DNA of 64,000 bases from the NCBI GenBank assembly GCA_902806085.1, contig CADCVH010000118.1, positions 1 to 64,000 of the forward strand, read 5' to 3'. The notes beneath the pieces are model-generated. The model did no database searches and had not been told where the DNA came from. It saw only the letters and a list, made by a program, of their open reading frames with translations. The stretch comes from an uncultured Rubrobacteraceae bacterium (lineage in GTDB: Bacteria > Actinomycetota > Rubrobacteria > Rubrobacterales > Rubrobacteraceae). Each line of letters starts with the position of its first letter. Position 1 is the first letter of the stretch. Both the position numbers and the translations under genes were made by a program. Below are positions 26,442 to 52,851 of this stretch, piece after piece.

Positions 26442-27845
26442 TCACCCGACGATGGGCTGGGCCAGGATCCAGAGGCTGCAGATGGTGTAGAGGACCATGA
26501 GCGCGAGCATCGGTAGCTGCCCCGGCACCACGCGCCCCGGTGCCGCAGGTAGGAGCGACGCGACCCGGTGCGCCAGCCACACGGCGACGGCGTGCCCGGC
26601 CACGATGAGCCCGACCTGCGCGTACCAGACGGCCCCCACCCCGACCATCCCGTACCTCGGCCGAAAATCCGCGGTCCCGAGCAGATCCCACCCCCACCCG
26701 AAAGGGTCCGAGGCGCCCGCAACCGCTTCCTGGCCCCCGACGAGCAGAAAGGTCCCGTAGTGGGCGGCCTGGTAGGCGACGGCTATGGGCACGAGCGCGA
26801 GCACGTACCCCGCCGCCGACCGGCGGAACGGACCCCGTTCCCCCCCGATAACCCGGCAGAGCCACACGCACCCCAGGTAGACGCCGAGAAACGCCGCCCA
26901 CGTCAGGAGAAGCCCCGTCGTCTGGGTGATGGGCGTCGTCCTTACGACCTCGACCCAAAACGGGGTCTCGAGCAGGCCGTCGTAGGTCACCCCGGCCAGC
27001 ACCAGCACCACGAACGACACCCCGCCCGGCGGCGCCCATCCCGGCCTCCCGAGACCGACCCCGAAAGGACGCAGGTTCATCCCCAGATCCTCCACGGCGG
27101 CCCGCGCGAAGCACGGGCGGCGCTTCACGCGCACCTGCTTCACGCGCACTTCCGTCGGGGCGAACCTGCCGAGCAGGCCGAAGAAGACGGAGAACGCCTC
27201 GCCGCGGCGCAGCCAGGTCTCCCCGCCGAACGAGGCCATGCCGTAGAACGTGACCACCGAGTACAGGAGGGCGGCGAACGCGACGTTGCGGGGCGTGGCG
27301 GGATCCGCGAACACGTTCTCGAACCAGACGAAGGCCAGGTAGAGCGCCACCGCCGGCCATACGCCCACCGCTTCGGGACAGGTCCACCCTAGCCACAACC
27401 CGTCCTTGCGCCCCAGCCGCCGGGCCGCACCGTCGGCCCAACCGAAGAGGATCCCCCACGGGTTCACCACCGGCCAGAGGTTACCCACGAAGGCCGCGAA
27501 AAGGGAGAGACCGACCCACCACACCGCCCAGACGAAAACCGGCGCGAGGTTTTCGCCGCCCTGCTCCCCGAAGAGGCCCGCCGACACCACGAGCCCGAAG
27601 AGCCCAACAGACAACAGACGCATCCCCGCCAACAGCGGCCGTGAACGGAGAAGCCCCCCCAAGACCGGTACGCGGAGCAGGTCCAGGCGCGGGTATTCGC
27701 CGCCGTCCCCCCCACCCTTTCCGGACAGGATCGCCAGCGGCAGAAAAGAGAGCAAGACAGCCGCGGCGGCCCCGTAGAGGTAAAGCCAGAGCGGCAGCGG
27801 CAAATCGTAGCCCTGCCCGAAGCCGTGGGCGAAGACCGGACGCAC
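26442..27845 (-). CDS. Polytopic membrane protein, unknown function
   Basis: A 467-residue integral membrane protein with about eleven hydrophobic segments. It opens with HGFGQGYDLPLPLWLYLYG, a conserved beginning of a family in actinobacteria sometimes labelled fenitrothion hydrolase; I do not regard that name as a safe function. It contains NLWPVVNPWGILFGW and several conserved Trp/His positions that could bind cofactors. The GTG start is six bases after the cupredoxin-like stop, and the stop itself supplies the ribosome site (TAGGGGGAC). The two genes are probably one functional unit at the membrane. Confidence 0.8.
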   Translation of the reverse strand: MRPVFAHGFGQGYDLPLPLWLYLYGAAAAVLLSFLPLAILSGKGGGDGGEYPRLDLLRVPVLGGLLRSRPLLAGMRLLSVGLFGLVVSAGLFGEQGGENLAPVFVWAVWWVGLSLFAAFVGNLWPVVNPWGILFGWADGAARRLGRKDGLWLGWTCPEAVGVWPAVALYLAFVWFENVFADPATPRNVAFAALLYSVVTFYGMASFGGETWLRRGEAFSVFFGLLGRFAPTEVRVKQVRVKRRPCFARAAVEDLGMNLRPFGVGLGRPGWAPPGGVSFVVLVLAGVTYDGLLETPFWVEVVRTTPITQTTGLLLTWAAFLGVYLGCVWLCRVIGGERGPFRRSAAGYVLALVPIAVAYQAAHYGTFLLVGGQEAVAGASDPFGWGWDLLGTADFRPRYGMVGVGAVWYAQVGLIVAGHAVAVWLAHRVASLLPAAPGRVVPGQLPMLALMVLYTICSLWILAQPIVG

Positions 27846-27851
27846 GTCCCC

Positions 27852-28211
27852 CTACCGCGGCCCTACCACGAGAACGCCGAGATCCTCTCCGGAGCGGTGG
27901 TCCTCGATCCCAAACCTCCCCGTAAGGCCCGCCCCGAAAGAGACCGCGGCCCCCTCCTCAGGACCGGCGCCCCACTCGATGCCGTAGCCGTGCAAATGGA
28001 GTTCCACGGGCTCCCCGGCCTCCACCCTCACCGTCACCCGGTCCCCCTCCCCCACGCGAAGCTCGCGAGGAACCATCTCCCCATCCTCCACAGAAACCTT
28101 AAACGTCCGCTCCCGGGGCCCGGCGGCGTGGGATTCCGGCCGCAAGACGAGGAAGAGCCCGACCAAGACGACCAACGCGACGACGAGCGCTCCCAGGGAC
28201 CTGACGACCAT
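27852..28211 (-). CDS. Membrane-anchored cupredoxin-like protein
   Basis: A 119-residue protein with an N-terminal transmembrane anchor (residues about 5-24) and one cupredoxin-fold domain outside the membrane. VSVEDGEMVPRELRVGEGDRVTVRV and VELHLHGYGIE match small plastocyanin-like domains. The usual copper Cys is not seen; His residues in LHLHGY and in IEDHRSG are the only candidate ligands, so copper binding is uncertain. GGGGGGAG precedes the ATG. First gene of a two-gene operon with the polytopic protein. Confidence 0.72.
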   Translation of the reverse strand: MVVRSLGALVVALVVLVGLFLVLRPESHAAGPRERTFKVSVEDGEMVPRELRVGEGDRVTVRVEAGEPVELHLHGYGIEWGAGPEEGAAVSFGAGLTGRFGIEDHRSGEDLGVLVVGPR

Positions 28212-41173: not shown

Positions 41174-41362
41174 GCTTTGAGGTTCAAGGCATAAGGTAAG
41201 TCGTCTGTGGCCTGCCTCGGCCCCGCCGGCGAGACCATCAGCCCGCGGCGGCGCTTCGCATTACCGCCCCCACAAACGGCAAGAGGGCCACGGCATTGAT
41301 GCCGTGGCCCTTCCCGAAACCTTGAGCCTCAAAACCTTGAGCCTCAAAACCTCAAAGCCTTA
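41172..41362. repeat. Long inverted repeat B, SDR / cytochrome cluster spacer
   Basis: The left arm (41172-41196; AGGCTTTGAGGTTCAAGG...) pairs with the right arm (41320-41362), which contains CCTTGAGCCTCAAAA twice and then CCTCAAAGCCT. The core AGGCTTTGAGGTT is exactly complementary over 13 bases. Both arms run into stop codons: the SDR TAG on one side and the small membrane protein TAA on the other. Confidence 0.82.
41284..41311. terminator. Perfect hairpin inside repeat B
   Basis: A perfect inverted repeat of AGGGCCACGGCAT around a two-base loop lies between the convergent SDR and cytochrome transcripts. It probably terminates both; TT follows on the plus strand. Confidence 0.75.
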
Positions 41363-41512
41363 TTCGTCCTTGCTGATCCAGTACGTGAACCCGAGGAAGC
41401 TGAGGAAGAACGTCATGATCAGGGTGAACGCGGCGAAGAAGCGGAAGATGCCGATACCGGTCGGGTTGGCGGTGGTTCCCTCCTGCAAGAGGAGCATCGC
41501 GAGGTCGATCAT
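41360..41512 (-). CDS. 50-residue membrane protein at the end of the bc/bd cluster
   Basis: A 50-residue protein with a short polar N-terminus and one strong transmembrane helix (GIFRFFAAFTLIMTFFLSFLGFTYWI) ending in SKDE. Its ATG overlaps the stop of the second CydA-like gene as ATGA, so it is translationally coupled to it. By position and size it resembles the small accessory subunits of bd oxidases (CydX, CydS), but no sequence similarity to them is visible. It could stabilise haems in the complex. It ends at inverted repeat B. Confidence 0.7.
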   Translation of the reverse strand: MIDLAMLLLQEGTTANPTGIGIFRFFAAFTLIMTFFLSFLGFTYWISKDE

Positions 41513-42849
41513 TCGGCCGCCTCCATCAGCGGTTCGGTCGGGCAGCCCTCGCTGACGACCCTCTGGTCGAGCGTCACGCAGTCGTTGATGAGGTAGCCGG
41601 GGTTGTTGTCCACCCTCCTCGCCGTCTCGCGGGTGTAGCCCATCGTGACCATCGTGAGCACCACGAAGACCGAGCACGCTATCAGCGCGTACTGGCTCCA
41701 GCGGCTCGCCCGGCCCCAGTGGAAGCCCGTGGCGGTCGCCCTTAGGTAGAGGGCTATCACGAAGAAGCCGACGATCATCAGCCCGATCAGGCCTATGTAC
41801 TTCCACGGGTACATGCTCCCGAGCGGTATGCTGGTGTCCTCGCCGCCGAGGAAGGAGAGCCCGATCTGCGGGATCAGGTCCATGTCCGCCGGGATGACGT
41901 TCAGTATCGTGAAGAGGGCCGTGAACCCGAGGCCGCCGACCGCGAGCTTGCGCAAGTTCTCCATCGGCTTGACGGTGAAGCGCAGCTTGTGCACGAAGTA
42001 GGCGGTGGAGGCGATGCTCAGAACCGCGATCCAGAAGACCAGCAGGTTGAAGACCCAGGCCTTGGAGCCGAGCATGATGGTGTTGAAGGCGTCGGGGGCG
42101 CTCTCGCGGATGCCCTTGAGGTAACCGTAGCCGATGACCGGCTGCATGATCAGGAACCCGAAGCCCCAGATCAGGCCGAAGTGCCCCATCCAGTCGTAGT
42201 ACTCCCGGTCGTCCTCGCGGGTGGTCCTGAGGTAGCGCCAGGCCCCCCAGCCCGCGATCAGGAACCCGGCGTAGGAGAAGTTCCCGATAAAGCGGTGCAT
42301 GTTCAGCGGCACCATCGTCTGGTTGAGGAAAGAGCGGGCCACGAGCTCGGACTGCGAGGTGACCTCGGCGGGGGTGAGCATGAAGGACGCCACCGCGTCG
42401 ATCATGGTCATAGCCATAAGGCCGAAGAAGCCGGCTATAAAGCCGAAGACGACGTGCAGGCTCTTGCGGTAGGCCAGCTTGTCCCAGACGTTGTACCAGG
42501 CGTACACGATGATGATCTGGCCGAGGAACATGAACGCCTCGACGAGAAAGACCCAGAAAAAGATGTTCTGCAAAACCGAGAAGAAGACCGGGAAGAGCGT
42601 GACGAGCGCGAGCACGAACGTGATCGCTAAAGCCGCCCCGGAGGCGAAGAGCAGGACCACGAAACGCGCCAGGTTGCGGGCGAAGCGCTCGTAGTTGGAC
42701 TGCTTGGTGACCATCCCAAGGTACTCGCTCGTCGCCGCTATGAGCACCGCCCCGATGATGAAGGCGGCGAAGAGGATGTGCGTCTGCACAAGCGCCGCAA
42801 TAACGACGTTCTTACCGATTACGGGAACGTCGAGGTTACCTATGGGCAT
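41509..42849 (-). CDS. CydA-like cytochrome bd superfamily subunit (distal copy)
   Basis: A 446-residue membrane protein with nine or more helices. His24 (THILFAAFIIG) and His185 (LNMHRFIGNFSY) match two haem ligands of E. coli CydA, and IDAVASFMLTPAE matches its conserved NSWMQTP region. Glu104 (WVFLVEAFMF) lies at the conserved haem/proton Glu, but the second Glu of that helix is not preserved. The quinol-binding Q loop and its GRQPW motif are absent; at that place the protein reads WGFGFLIMQPVIGYGYL. No CydB lies beside it. Probably a haem-bearing subunit of a larger complex with the b6/Rieske genes upstream. Confidence 0.8.
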   Translation of the reverse strand: MPIGNLDVPVIGKNVVIAALVQTHILFAAFIIGAVLIAATSEYLGMVTKQSNYERFARNLARFVVLLFASGAALAITFVLALVTLFPVFFSVLQNIFFWVFLVEAFMFLGQIIIVYAWYNVWDKLAYRKSLHVVFGFIAGFFGLMAMTMIDAVASFMLTPAEVTSQSELVARSFLNQTMVPLNMHRFIGNFSYAGFLIAGWGAWRYLRTTREDDREYYDWMGHFGLIWGFGFLIMQPVIGYGYLKGIRESAPDAFNTIMLGSKAWVFNLLVFWIAVLSIASTAYFVHKLRFTVKPMENLRKLAVGGLGFTALFTILNVIPADMDLIPQIGLSFLGGEDTSIPLGSMYPWKYIGLIGLMIVGFFVIALYLRATATGFHWGRASRWSQYALIACSVFVVLTMVTMGYTRETARRVDNNPGYLINDCVTLDQRVVSEGCPTEPLMEAAE

Positions 42850-42861
42850 CCTCTACTCCTT

Positions 42862-43350
42862 CTAGGCCGTCGGGAAGTTCATGATCCGGCTGACCGCCAT
42901 CAGCATGTTCAGGACCACGATCACGACCACCAGAATACCTATGACGGTCGCGAAGGGCCTGCTAATGGCGCTGTAGTGCTGCGGGCTCCGGTCGAGCCAC
43001 GGCACGGCGAAGAGCAGCACGATAAAGATGGTCGGCACGACCACGGCCCCGAAGCTGACCAGGGCATAACCGGGGAAGAACATCAGCATCTGCTCGTAGA
43101 AGAAGAAGAACCACTCGGGACGCGGCACGTACTCCACGGTAGCCGTATCGGCCGGCGCGGTGAGCGGCGCCGGCGCGGCATAGGAGAGCACGGCGCAGGC
43201 GATTATCAGGAACGTGAAGACGTAGGTGTCTTTGAGGACCTGACCCGGAAAGAAGCCCATCGTCTCGTCCGGACGATCGTAGACGTTCTCCTCGGTGATG
43301 ACCTCTTCCTCTACCGGCTTGCTCTTGCCGGCCGCCGGAACGTATACCAT
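42862..43350 (-). CDS. Cytochrome b subunit IV-like protein
   Basis: A 162-residue protein with three to four hydrophobic segments corresponding to the C-terminal half of cytochrome b. YVPRPEWFFFFYEQMLMFFPG replaces the PEWY motif that closes the quinol-oxidation (Qo) site in bc complexes. With the separate cytochrome b6 gene upstream, this is a split cytochrome b of b6f layout. The N-terminal 45 residues are polar and may face the cytoplasm. No c-type haem motif is present. Confidence 0.88.
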   Translation of the reverse strand: MVYVPAAGKSKPVEEEVITEENVYDRPDETMGFFPGQVLKDTYVFTFLIIACAVLSYAAPAPLTAPADTATVEYVPRPEWFFFFYEQMLMFFPGYALVSFGAVVVPTIFIVLLFAVPWLDRSPQHYSAISRPFATVIGILVVVIVVLNMLMAVSRIMNFPTA

Positions 43351-43420
43351 GACCTTACCTCTCTCCTAGTCGACCGGTCGCACTATAACAGCGCCGCGCA
43401 CCAAACCTCGGTAAATGCTC

Positions 43421-44233
43421 TTACTCGCCCCTGCCGTTGCTTCTGCCGTTCCGCTCCGCCTCGTCCTCATCGTCGTCGTCCAGCTCGTACCCGGCGTACT
43501 CCTCCAGCCGCTGGCGCTCGTGCAGCTTCGCGAGCCGCTCGGAGTACTCGAACTCGCTGCCGAACACGCCGTGGCGCCTGAGCAGGTAGAGGTGGATGCC
43601 TATAAACGGCGCGATGGCCGCGGGCAGCAACCAGACGTGCAACGCAAAGAACCGGGATAACGTGGCTGGCCCGGCCACGTCGCCGCCGAGCAGGAAGTTG
43701 ATCACGTACCCCCCGACGAACGGCGAGTAGGAGCCGATCTTCATCCCCACGACCGATGCCCAAAACCCGTCCTGGTCCCACCGGAGCAGGTAGCCCGTGA
43801 AGGCCAGCCCGATGACGAGCAGCAGCAGGACGACGCCGACGACCCAGTTAAGCTCCCGCGGCGCCTTGTAGCCGCCCGCGAAAAAGACCTGGGCCATGTG
43901 CAACCCGATCATGGCCAAAAGGAAGTTGGCCGACCAGTAATGGATGCCGCGAACGAGCTGGCCGAAGTAGGCCTCGTTCATGATGTAGTTGACCGAGTTC
44001 CACGCGTGGTCGGTCGAGGGCACGTAGTAGAAGAGCAGCAGGATACCGGTAAGGAACTGCACCACTATGAGGCCGAGAACCGCGCTCCCGAGGGTGTAGA
44101 CCCAGGCCCCACGCTTGGGAACGGGCTCGTAGAGGAAGTGCTCAAGTTGCGTGACTATGCCGGTTCGGTGCTCCATCCAGTCCACGATGAACTTGGAGGC
44201 TTCTTCGGTCTGGGACCTCATCCTGCCTATCAT
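43421..44233 (-). CDS. Cytochrome b6-like subunit
   Basis: A 270-residue protein with four transmembrane helices. Two pairs of haem-b His are visible, one pair in RGIHYWSANFLLAMIGLHM (13 residues between) and one in ALHVWLLPAAIAPFIGIHL (14 residues between). The 14-residue spacing is the b6 pattern. GAWVYTLGSAVLGLIVVQFLTG and RWDQDGFWA are also typical. The C-terminus is a long acidic cytoplasmic tail (ELDDDDEDEAERNGR). It would transfer electrons from quinol across the membrane. It lies between the Rieske and subunit IV genes. Confidence 0.94.
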   Translation of the reverse strand: MIGRMRSQTEEASKFIVDWMEHRTGIVTQLEHFLYEPVPKRGAWVYTLGSAVLGLIVVQFLTGILLLFYYVPSTDHAWNSVNYIMNEAYFGQLVRGIHYWSANFLLAMIGLHMAQVFFAGGYKAPRELNWVVGVVLLLLVIGLAFTGYLLRWDQDGFWASVVGMKIGSYSPFVGGYVINFLLGGDVAGPATLSRFFALHVWLLPAAIAPFIGIHLYLLRRHGVFGSEFEYSERLAKLHERQRLEEYAGYELDDDDEDEAERNGRSNGRGE

Positions 44234-44249
44234 GCTCAGGTCTCCCTCT

Positions 44250-44972
44250 CTAGACCACGTAGGGCTGCTGCTTGTTCAGCCCCGGCTCGATGTCGTACCC
44301 GTGCTTGATGTAAAGGGTACCGTCTTCCCTGACCTCCGCCTGTGTATAGTTGTACATCCCGCGCGGCGGCGGACCGCCGACGTACCCGCCGTTGATGTCG
44401 TAGAGCCCGCCGTGACAGGGACACAAGAACTCGTGCTTATCGGGGAACCACCTCACCGGGCAGCCCAGGTGGGCGCACGAGTTCGAGAGGATGTTCAGCT
44501 GGCCCCGGATCTCGTCCCGCTCTGACTGCGTGAACCCCGAGCTCTTCTGGTCCACGATGGCCGGCTTCTCCGGCTCGCCCAAGATGTCGCCGCCGGAACC
44601 CTGCGTGCCCTGCTGCTTGACCGGGGCCTTCCAGGAGATCCAGACCGCGTGCCTCACGGTGAAGTCGCTCTGGGACTTCTGCGAATCGGGAAACTTCTCC
44701 TGGATCTCCTTGTCGCTGTAGACCTGCTCGATCGGAAACTCGACCTCGAAGACGTCCGGCGTGCCCGGCTTGAGCTCCTTGAGGTCCTTGATCGTGGCGA
44801 CCCGTTGCCAGCCCTGGTCTATGTCCGTCTGGCCGAGCACGTTCGTCTTTATGACCGGGCTCAGGACGAACGCCACCGGCGGTATCGTCAGGATGGCCCC
44901 GGAGATGGCTCCCAGTATCCCGAAGCCGAGGAAGTCTCCGCGGGTGATCGGGTCTTTCTGTAGCTCCGCCAA
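44250..44972 (-). CDS. Rieske [2Fe-2S] protein
   Basis: A 240-residue protein with a single N-terminal membrane anchor (FGILGAISGAILTIPPVAF) and a C-terminal Rieske domain. The cluster ligands are in CAHLGCPV and CPCHGGLYD: two Cys and two His, plus the disulfide Cys pair. GGPPPRGM follows as in many Rieske proteins. It would accept the first electron at the Qo site and pass it on. In this cluster no cytochrome c or f is encoded, so its acceptor is unknown; the CydA-like subunits are candidates. Confidence 0.95.
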   Translation of the reverse strand: MAELQKDPITRGDFLGFGILGAISGAILTIPPVAFVLSPVIKTNVLGQTDIDQGWQRVATIKDLKELKPGTPDVFEVEFPIEQVYSDKEIQEKFPDSQKSQSDFTVRHAVWISWKAPVKQQGTQGSGGDILGEPEKPAIVDQKSSGFTQSERDEIRGQLNILSNSCAHLGCPVRWFPDKHEFLCPCHGGLYDINGGYVGGPPPRGMYNYTQAEVREDGTLYIKHGYDIEPGLNKQQPYVV

Positions 44973-44989
44973 TGCTTTCCCCTTCTAAC

Positions 44990-46324
44990 CTACTGCCCGA
45001 ACCCGGTGGGCGGCTGGCTCGGTTCCACGGTGTATCCTGGCTGATTATAAACGGTGAACGGCACCCTGGAGTTGGACTTCATGAGGCCCATGTTGAGCGC
45101 CAGCACCGCCGCGAGGACCCCCGCCGCCATCAGCACCACCCGGTAGCCCCCGCCCGGGCTCCCGTACCGGAACCGCAGCCGGGCGCGCAGGTACGTAACG
45201 AACGCCGCCAGCGTGGCGATTATCATGATGAGCAGCATGATGTAGCGCATGTAGAGGAACGGGAAGTCGGCCAGCGGCGAGACCGAGTACAGGCCCGTGA
45301 CCGCGGCCAGCAGGGCGAAGAACCGGATCGGGACCCGCCCGGCCTGGTCCGGGTGGCGCTCGGACCCGAAGTACATGGCGAGGTTACCGAGCACGAAGAG
45401 CACGACCACGAAGATCAGGTTCATCACGAGCAGGTTGGAGGTGTCTCCCTGGGTGAGCCGCGCGTAGGACCCCCCGCTCGTCGCGGCCCCGGTCGGGTTT
45501 TCCGGCGCCGACATCTTCAGCGAGTACATCATCGCGAACCCGACTATCGGCTGCAGGAGCAGGAACCCGACGCCCCAGGTGAGGCCGACGGAGGAGGTCC
45601 AGTCGTAGAAGGCCTTGTCCTCGCTGGTCTTGGCGCGGATGTACATGAACGAGGCCCACCCGGCGAGGGCGAAGGCCGGCCAGGAGAGGTTGGCGAAGGT
45701 CCTGTGCAGGACCATCTCCGTGAACATGGGGTTGAAGATCCCCTGCAACGCCGCCCCGAAGCTCGCGACGTTCTGGCTGATGGCCGGGGCCCCCGGCCCG
45801 CCCGTGGTCATGAAGGTGTCTATCCCGGTCATGATGACCATCCACACCCAGATAAAGAGCCCCATCGTGAACCCGAGGGCTATGTGCCGCTTTTTGTTGA
45901 GGACGCTGTAGCGATCCCACTTGTAGTAGTAGGAGTACATACCCCAGAGCGCGAGCCCCATAGAGAGCATCGCCAGCGCGATAAAGTAGAAGAAGTGCGT
46001 GAAGAGCGAGGTCGTGACCGCGGGGTAGAGGCCCACGAGAAGCACGACGAAGAGGACCGCGAAGGTCGCCCCCGTCGAGAAGGTGAGCACGTTGAACCGG
46101 GCCATCGAGTGGGCCAGCCGGTCCATCCTCGGGCTCCCGGTTCGCGCGCCCCACGCCTGCAAGACGGGCGCCGCAAGCGCGAACCCGACGAAGATCTCCG
46201 CAAAGAACATGTGTATGAGCATGGAGGAGCCCGTGATGAATCGGGCCCCCCCGACCTGCTCGAAGCCGTCCGTGACATTTATCTGGGCCAGGAAGTGCAG
46301 GCCCGATAGTGTTGCTGCGCCCAC
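44990..46324 (-). CDS. CydA-like cytochrome bd superfamily subunit (proximal copy)
   Basis: A 444-residue paralogue of the distal CydA-like subunit. His38 (SMLIHMFFAEIFVG) and the His of EMVLHRTFANLSW match haem ligand positions. The Glu at the conserved haem/proton position is lost: that helix reads FIALAMLSMGLALWGMYSYY. The Q loop is missing here too (WGVGFLLLQPIVGFAMMY). So this copy may bind low-spin haem or play a structural role, while the distal copy keeps more of the oxygen site. It begins the core of the cluster, 15 bases after the upstream gene's stop. Confidence 0.8.
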   Translation of the reverse strand: MGAATLSGLHFLAQINVTDGFEQVGGARFITGSSMLIHMFFAEIFVGFALAAPVLQAWGARTGSPRMDRLAHSMARFNVLTFSTGATFAVLFVVLLVGLYPAVTTSLFTHFFYFIALAMLSMGLALWGMYSYYYKWDRYSVLNKKRHIALGFTMGLFIWVWMVIMTGIDTFMTTGGPGAPAISQNVASFGAALQGIFNPMFTEMVLHRTFANLSWPAFALAGWASFMYIRAKTSEDKAFYDWTSSVGLTWGVGFLLLQPIVGFAMMYSLKMSAPENPTGAATSGGSYARLTQGDTSNLLVMNLIFVVVLFVLGNLAMYFGSERHPDQAGRVPIRFFALLAAVTGLYSVSPLADFPFLYMRYIMLLIMIIATLAAFVTYLRARLRFRYGSPGGGYRVVLMAAGVLAAVLALNMGLMKSNSRVPFTVYNQPGYTVEPSQPPTGFGQ

Positions 46325-46338
46325 GCTCTAAGCTCCTT

Positions 46339-46974
46339 CTAGGCTCCGCCGGATCTGTCTAGAATGGACTCCCCCACCCTGGGCCCTCCTGCCCGGCGCA
46401 GGAGCGCCTGGTGGACCGCCCGCGGCTCCAGCCGCCGGTCCACTATGTAGTACATCGCGCCGTTGCGCTGCAGGGCTTCGCGGACCGGGCGCAAGAGCCG
46501 CCGCTCCTTGGTGGAGGCAAAGAGCAGCACCTTGCCCCTCTCGAACGCCTGGTTCCACGTTCCGGCCTCCTCCTGCGGGGCCTGCATCTCGACCAGGATC
46601 GGGTCCACCCCTACCCTGGTCATGGACCCCGCCACGAGGATGGCGGCGAGCGAGACAAAGACCATGAGGGTCGGTATGCCGATGGCGGGCGTCGTTACCG
46701 CGAAGAACGTCCCGAAAACTATGAACGCTATCGCGAAACCGAGCGGCACCTCCAGCCCGCGCTTGTCCCCCGGCACGACGATGTAGCGCGTTCCCTCGGG
46801 GAAGGGCTCGGGGTCGCTGAAATCCTGGCGTTTGAGCACGACGGTCAGATCGTCGCGGCCCACGCCAAGGTCCCGGATCTCCGTGACCGCCTGGTTCAAC
46901 TCCGTGCCGTCGTCCACGACCCCGACCACGGTGTACCAGGGAGCCTGCTCCGGCGCCTCCCGCCCTTCCGTCAA
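46339..46974 (-). CDS. Membrane protein heading the bc/bd cluster
   Basis: A 211-residue protein. Its N-terminal region (TVVGVVDDGTELNQAVTEIRDLGVGRDDLTVVLKR) looks like the alpha/beta fold of general-stress or sensor-type domains. Two adjacent transmembrane helices (residues about 75-125) follow, then a second small alpha/beta domain (GKVLLFASTKERRLLRPVREAL). The TTG at 46974 is chosen because GGAGGT lies seven bases upstream; the frame is open to 47655 but that stretch is antisense to the divergent gene. It is first in the operon and might assemble or regulate the oxidase. I do not recognise the family. Confidence 0.68.
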   Translation of the reverse strand: MTEGREAPEQAPWYTVVGVVDDGTELNQAVTEIRDLGVGRDDLTVVLKRQDFSDPEPFPEGTRYIVVPGDKRGLEVPLGFAIAFIVFGTFFAVTTPAIGIPTLMVFVSLAAILVAGSMTRVGVDPILVEMQAPQEEAGTWNQAFERGKVLLFASTKERRLLRPVREALQRNGAMYYIVDRRLEPRAVHQALLRRAGGPRVGESILDRSGGA

Positions 46975-52125: not shown

Positions 52126-52851
52126 ATGGATACCTTCCTGCTGTGGATAGGCGTCATCGGCTTCGTTCTGGCGACGGCCTTCTTTATCTACCTGGGAACC
52201 CAGGCCCCGCAGGGCAGTCGTATCTTCCACGTCGTTACCGCCGTCATCACCGGAACGGCGGCCTTCTCCTACCTGATGATGGCCACCGGGGCCGGCGCGA
52301 CGCTCGTTGAAGGCGACCGGCTCTTCTACTACTTCCGCTACATCGACTGGACAATCACAACGCCCTTGCTGCTGGTTGACCTGGTGCTGCTGGCGCTCGT
52401 CAACCCCGGCCGCAACATCGGGTTCATAGTAGGGTTGATCGTGCTGGACGTCTTCATGATTCTTACCGGCCTGCTGGCCGGCTCCAGAAGCTCAGAGTTT
52501 GCCGCGTATTTCTGGTTTATCGTCAGCACCATCGCCATGATCGTGCTCCTCTTCCTGGTCGCGACCCGCCTGTTCTCCGAGGCCTCGAGGCAGTCTGGGG
52601 CGGTGCAGCAGACCTTCCGCACCCTGGCCGTGCTCACGGTGGTCCTGTGGTCCCTCTACCCCATCGTGTGGCTGCTCGGCACGGAGGGTTTCGCGGCCGT
52701 GGGCGTCACTACGGAGATCTTCTTGTTCCTGATCCTCGACTTCCTCGCCAAGATTGGTTTCGGCATCCTCTTGCTGACCAACCGGGAGGCGATCGGCCAG
52801 GCGTTCGGCGGCGGTGGCGGCGGCGCGGCCCAGGCCAGCAGGGTCCGCTAG
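52126..52851 (+). CDS. Light-driven outward proton-pump rhodopsin
   Basis: A 241-residue, seven-helix microbial rhodopsin close to archaeal bacteriorhodopsin and to the Rubrobacter xylanophilus pump. Helix C reads YFRYIDWTITTPLLLVDL, giving Arg71, Asp74, Thr78 and Asp85: the DTD motif with proton acceptor and donor. Lys209 (LDFLAKIGFG) binds retinal, with Asp205 as counter-ion. Glu187 (LGTEG) and Glu197 (VTTEIFLF) match the proton-release pair Glu194/Glu204 of bacteriorhodopsin. The tail is Gly/Ala-rich. AAAGGAG precedes the ATG. Retinal synthesis genes are not in the window. Confidence 0.96.
   Translation: MDTFLLWIGVIGFVLATAFFIYLGTQAPQGSRIFHVVTAVITGTAAFSYLMMATGAGATLVEGDRLFYYFRYIDWTITTPLLLVDLVLLALVNPGRNIGFIVGLIVLDVFMILTGLLAGSRSSEFAAYFWFIVSTIAMIVLLFLVATRLFSEASRQSGAVQQTFRTLAVLTVVLWSLYPIVWLLGTEGFAAVGVTTEIFLFLILDFLAKIGFGILLLTNREAIGQAFGGGGGGAAQASRVR

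Follow-up and report, generated by a model that had tools for sequence, protein, structure and literature searches.

The window analysed here is a stretch of 64,000 nucleotides from contig C118 of an uncultured Rubrobacteraceae assembly (4.41 Mb in 133 contigs, completeness 100, contamination 4.55), and it carries a minus-strand run of seven genes, from position 46974 down to 41360, which encode in turn a protein with two transmembrane (TM) helices, a CydA-like protein (CydA1), a Rieske protein, a cytochrome b6-type subunit, a subunit IV-like protein (subIV), a second CydA-like protein (CydA2) and a 50-residue membrane protein (Table 1). The genes are separated, in this order, by gaps of 14, 17, 16, 70 and 12 nucleotides, and the last pair overlaps by 4 nucleotides. 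An initial annotation of the window had listed this run and proposed that it encodes a hybrid quinol:oxygen oxidoreductase. All seven genes were indeed found at the place and in the order it gave, and the cluster has, as it stated, no c-type haem, no copper oxidase and no CydB, the last being looked for in the cluster and not genome-wide. Families were assigned throughout by Pfam and NCBIfam searches, on which the gene absences reported for this genome also rest, and the residues of both CydA proteins are numbered as in Escherichia coli CydA.

Table 1. Coordinates of the module genes and of other genes discussed in the window
Feature	Position	Strand	Family match or remark
211-aa membrane protein	46974-46339	minus	First gene of the Rubrobacter module
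CydA1, 444 aa	46324-44990	minus	PF01654 3e-8
Rieske 2Fe-2S protein, 240 aa	44972-44250	minus	PF00355
Cytochrome b6-type subunit, 270 aa	44233-43421	minus	PF00033 1.9e-45; NF002990 cytochrome b6 3e-64
Subunit IV-like protein, 162 aa	43350-42862	minus	PF00032 2.7e-6
CydA2, 446 aa	42849-41509	minus	PF01654 3.7e-18
50-aa single-TM protein	41512-41360	minus	13-sequence alignment
Small cupredoxin-like protein	27852-28211	minus	No type 1 copper site
467-aa multi-TM protein	26442-27845	minus	No Pfam or NCBIfam match
Bacteriorhodopsin-like protein	52126-52851	plus	PF01036 5e-57

A genome scan for the module returned 34 loci. The core order cydA1-rieske-b6-subIV-cydA2 is kept in every module that is not cut by a contig end, both in Rubrobacteraceae, with R. 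marinus and R. taiwanensis among them, and at six loci from soil Chloroflexi, and its retention in two phyla lies far beyond what chance would give. The Chloroflexi proteins share approximately 27-33% identity with those of the window for the CydAs and 53-54% for b6, which is fused there to subIV. Whole second modules, diverged and in the same order, are present at five loci (L020, L022, L080, L083 and L087). Among 396 Actinomycetota genomes, paired CydAs were confined to Rubrobacteraceae, where the two CydA types occur together in 30 of the 39 genomes of the family set and, in 28 of these, share a contig at a distance of approximately 3.4 kb; when only the best family genomes are considered (completeness of 90% or more, contamination of 5% or less; n=22), both types occur in 21. 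The initial annotation had suggested looking for these genes together elsewhere and had regarded constant company of a c-type cytochrome or CydB as the outcome that would speak against a hybrid enzyme; the homologous clusters examined carry neither. Three genomes (G032, G033 and G034) also encode orphan cydA2 paralogues (L079, L082 and L085) in the absence of cydA1, rieske, b6 and subIV, and G032 combines its orphan with two modules and no canonical CydA. The next gene downstream of the G032 orphan resembles a DsbA/FrnE-type thioredoxin-fold protein.

In a phylogenetic tree in which some long branches meet, the first gene of the Chloroflexi loci joins CydA1 (94/92) and the last joins CydA2 (96/86), a grouping which indicates that the CydA1/CydA2 duplication is older than the divergence between Rubrobacteraceae and Chloroflexi. 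The CydA pair, already split, would then have been inherited or transferred together. Both CydAs group with OR-N-like proteins from loci L034-L036, apart from canonical CydA, although long branches meet here as well and the tree was built without reference OR-N1, OR-N2 or OR-N5 sequences.

The central three genes of the module encode several hallmarks of a b6f/bc1 complex, namely the Rieske CxH...CxxH motif, the four b-haem histidine residues and PEWY/F. The Rieske protein has a single N-terminal TM anchor, C171/C186 and the ligands C166-x-H168 and C184-x-x-H187; these ligands are invariant across 15 aligned sequences, Chloroflexi included. In b6 the bis-His pairs H98/H199 and H112/H214 are likewise invariant in both phyla, and the haem ci position (YT-LGS) has no cysteine, while subIV carries the equally invariant Qo-site motif as P78-E79-W80-F81. 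Between its anchor and the cluster-binding fold, the Rubrobacter Rieske protein has an insertion of very variable length, missing from the Chloroflexi version, which could be a docking element.

Alignment with E. coli CydA separates the two CydA-like proteins. CydA2 retains H19, E99, H186 and E445 (as H24, E104, H185 and E408) together with R448; E107 is replaced by glutamine (glutamate in one second-copy sequence) and M393 by isoleucine or leucine. CydA1 retains H19, H186, R391 and R448, with E99 changed to alanine, E107 to alanine, serine or threonine, and E445 to serine or threonine. In the E. coli protein, H19 and E99 belong to haem d, E445 to haem b595 and the pair H186/M393 to haem b558. 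The active-site set of H19, E99 and E445 is complete in CydA2, whereas CydA1 has H19 alone of these, so that a di-haem oxygen site can be housed in CydA2 but not, in the usual manner, in CydA1. These residues suggest CydA2 as the predicted O2-reducing subunit and CydA1 as a predicted CydB-like or electron-transfer partner, and not the roughly equal pair of the initial annotation. For haem b558, H186 is present and M393 has become isoleucine, leucine or valine in both proteins; a methionine at position R+3 of CydA1 was considered as a substitute ligand and rejected, as it is not conserved in Chloroflexi. Neither protein has the Q loop: K252 and E257 are missing from CydA2, where the loop is replaced, and CydA1 has no conserved equivalent.

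AlphaFold2 models of CydA2 (predicted local distance difference test score 83.5) and CydA1 (86.2) both had CydA chains of bd oxidases as their best Foldseek matches, with E values of approximately 1e-7 and 4e-7 respectively, and CydA1 matched CydB chains too. Both models gave template modelling scores of approximately 0.6 against the CydA chains of solved bd oxidases, CydB chains being weaker. Given the high global root mean square deviation, the models may be taken to support fold identity and not detail.

Two smaller proteins flank this core. The 211-residue protein, fairly described initially as a two-domain membrane protein, has a soluble N-terminal domain with a weak likeness to YflT, approximately two TM helices and a soluble C-terminal domain, an architecture conserved in Rubrobacter modules. 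It matches no Pfam or NCBIfam family above cut-off, and its gene lies directly upstream of cydA1 in the Rubrobacter loci that reach that far, second copies included, while none was detected at the Chloroflexi loci. The gene for the 50-residue protein follows cydA2 in most Rubrobacter modules, and the last nine residues of its product, FTYWISKDE, are invariant in the alignment. This is probably a small accessory subunit, CydX/CydS-like by position only. It also has a weak NCBIfam match, falling far short of the cut-off at E 0.027, to NF052408 (‘NOVXTKCP family nitrogen cycling protein’).

To place the module in its host, we consider the other oxidases of these genomes. PF01654 has two matches in the genome of the window, both of them the CydAs of the cluster, and canonical CydAB was rejected on this ground as the oxidase of this organism; canonical CydA is present in relatives such as G007 and G008. 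COX1, the haem-copper oxidase subunit, has no match in this genome or in those of R. marinus and R. taiwanensis, and matches occur in only two of the 39 family genomes (G007 and G023), in frames of 763-780 residues. We set these aside as oxidases because their length and N-terminal extension (762 residues in L037) look like quinol NO reductase, although no NCBIfam match confirmed it. Alternative oxidase (AOX) had no match in this genome or in the 39 family genomes, in a search run without a positive control. Five genomes (G001, G002, G004, G025 and G026; 75-86% complete) have no CydA-like or COX1 match, a gap probably due to missing contigs. The module is the sole recognizable oxygen reductase in the genome of the window and in several near-complete relatives, with seven genomes of at least 90% completeness (G000, G003, G006, G020, G031, G032 and G034) having no other recognized one. 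An earlier study described Rubrobacteria as carrying only a ‘cytochrome bd ubiquinol oxidase’ and no cytochrome c oxidase, and saw nothing that pointed to anaerobic respiration in their metagenome-assembled genomes (MAGs) (PMC7901476). In many genomes this commonly held bd ubiquinol oxidase is the present module, with CydAs that have no known quinol site.

It could be supposed that the complex reduces another molecule, such as NO or peroxide, and that O2 respiration falls to an oxidase which escapes recognition. Enzymes of the bd type do react with NO and peroxide, and the Chloroflexi hosts have COX1 besides the module. We nevertheless consider this highly improbable, as COX1, canonical CydA and AOX were found neither in the host nor in several near-complete relatives, and O2 is reported as the only evident acceptor in Rubrobacteria (PMC7901476).

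On the donor side, PF00033 has one match in the genome, the b6 of the cluster, and no other cytochrome b was found. In G008 a second, fused cytochrome b of 379 residues is encoded at L044 (G008:C1:3835000-3847000), with no match to the module Rieske, subIV or CydA nearby and with NuoM- and NuoN-like subunits encoded a few kb away. Cytochrome c of the PF00034 family was found neither in this genome nor in the genus, and the c-cytochrome assembly family PF01578, which was detected in nine control genomes, is missing from all 39 family genomes. The same pathway might still run through a small mobile carrier, a cupredoxin, high-potential iron-sulfur protein (HiPIP) or other soluble protein, placed between the Rieske protein and the CydA pair. 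PF00127 cupredoxins occur in 12 of the 39 family genomes, and the related OR-N-like CydAs of L034-L036 adjoin c-type cytochromes, with cupredoxins too in L034. However, PF00127 is absent from the genome of the window, from G032 and from several module-bearing genomes that are complete or nearly so (a genome-wide search that extended neither to HiPIP nor to PF13473 cupredoxins), the missing assembly family excludes c-type carriers, and the conserved module includes no carrier gene. We therefore regard a mobile carrier as unlikely. The small cupredoxin-like protein of the window was itself rejected as a carrier, since it has no cysteine; the gene that follows it encodes the 467-residue multi-TM protein.

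A further alternative is that the CydA pair oxidizes quinol itself at a non-canonical site, with b6/Rieske acting as a partner or regulator rather than as the donor. A precedent exists in the archaeal CydAA' of Caldivirga, in which, as Murali and co-workers reportedly described in 2021, two CydA paralogues make up an active quinol oxidase, and the orphan cydA2 copies are in keeping with it. Set against this are the loss of K252/E257 and the replacement of the Q loop in CydA2, and such a pair would strand the only Rieske/b6 of the genome without an electron acceptor and leave the strict co-conservation of five genes unexplained. We hold this to be quite unlikely.

Given a single Rieske/b complex, the absence of c-type cytochromes and of a conserved cupredoxin, and CydAs that cannot bind quinol by the known mode, electrons would most simply run from quinol through b6/Rieske and CydA1/CydA2 to O2 within one complex. 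We propose, with a probability of about 0.62, that the cluster encodes such a quinol:O2 oxidoreductase, in which the Rieske protein passes electrons directly to the CydA pair. The hybrid enzyme of the initial annotation gains support from co-conservation in two phyla, from clusters that carry neither c-type cytochrome nor CydB and from a family devoid of c-cytochrome assembly; the single complex, direct transfer, the haem content, O2 as acceptor and Q-cycle proton coupling are inferred. O2 as acceptor gains further weight from the host, in which no other known O2 reductase turned up. Menaquinol would be oxidized at a Qo site that b6 and subIV (PEWF) build together, one electron being recycled via the two b haems in a Q cycle and the other passing to the Rieske centre and from there straight to a haem on the periplasmic side of the CydA1/CydA2 heterodimer. 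The electrons would then reach a high-spin di-haem site in CydA2 (H19, E99 and E445), where O2 would be reduced to water, with CydA1 occupying the position of CydB and perhaps binding haem only at H19 and/or H186.

Several points weigh against this proposal. M393 is lost from both CydAs, which leaves the haem meant to accept the Rieske electron with no identified second ligand, and the E107 to glutamine change in CydA2 falls in the proton path. The orphan copies indicate that CydA2 can be encoded alone, several less complete MAGs have no module, and the Chloroflexi hosts also carry haem-copper oxidases, so that the main oxidase is not the module in every case. Taking the family as a whole, we see an even chance that a c-free Q-cycle complex III joined to a bd-like oxidase, with direct Rieske-to-haem transfer, is its ancestral oxygen reductase and, in several members, the only one.

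Elsewhere in the window, the bacteriorhodopsin-like protein is a possible light-driven pump, and no RNA families or tRNAs were found within the window.

Known Q-cycle complexes deliver electrons to a c-type cytochrome or copper protein, whereas characterized bd oxidases take quinol directly and have no Q cycle. If the proposal is true, a Rieske-fed bd-like oxidase would pair the additional proton translocation offered by a Q cycle with oxygen reduction that needs no copper, and would do without cytochrome c. The reading of Rubrobacter physiology changes as well, in that the bd ubiquinol oxidase ascribed to these desiccation- and radiation-resistant aerobes is in many genomes the module, with CydAs that have no known quinol site. 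As cultured species carry the module, the question is directly testable. Coupling complex III to a bd-like oxidase is not in itself a new idea, having been proposed for Nitrospira; the literature searched, which did not extend to the 2021 work of Murali, where such clusters may be mentioned, yielded no c-free, interleaved five-gene form in a family devoid of c-type cytochromes.

Compared with cytochrome b6f/bc1, the module shares the Rieske protein, the four-His b6 and a split subunit IV with PEWF, but has no cytochrome f/c1 or haem ci cysteine and carries a CydA pair in place of the c-type acceptor. It shares the CydA2 active-site ligands with canonical CydAB, from which it differs by the absence of the Q loop, M393 and a CydB in the cluster. 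As in archaeal CydAA', two CydA paralogues replace CydA plus CydB, although the module has no Q loop and adds b6/Rieske, whereas the archaeal enzyme reportedly uses quinol directly. In the actinobacterial bcc-aa3 supercomplex, an obligate III-IV unit that works without free cytochrome c, electrons pass through a cytochrome c subunit with two haems to an oxidase of the haem-copper type. The module would likewise join III and IV in Actinomycetota with no free cytochrome c between them, but neither that subunit nor that type of oxidase was found in Rubrobacteraceae.

Complex III-like parts cluster with bd-like oxidases in Nitrospirota, as TO_3/TO_4 of ‘Ca. Manganitrophus’ and the CIII/bd-like region of Nitrospira (PMC9040806, PMC6606698), and for Nitrospira a III-IV supercomplex with bd-like oxidases has been proposed, alongside c-type cytochromes (PMC6606698). 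The Rubrobacter module differs in that the Nitrospira region has c-type cytochromes and that both hosts are chemolithotrophs. A close parallel in the CydAs themselves is the OR-N type of Nitrospirota and Nitrospinota, which belongs to the bd superfamily, has no quinol site and no CydB, is proposed to form a CydAA' with cytochrome c as donor, and in Nitrospirales includes OR-N5 genes downstream of alternative complex III (PMC10839748, PMC12342949). The module CydAs likewise lack a quinol site and pair with a CydA paralogue in place of CydB. Unlike OR-N, they belong to a family without c-type cytochrome assembly, and the genes for Rieske, b6 and subIV lie between the two CydA genes of the module.
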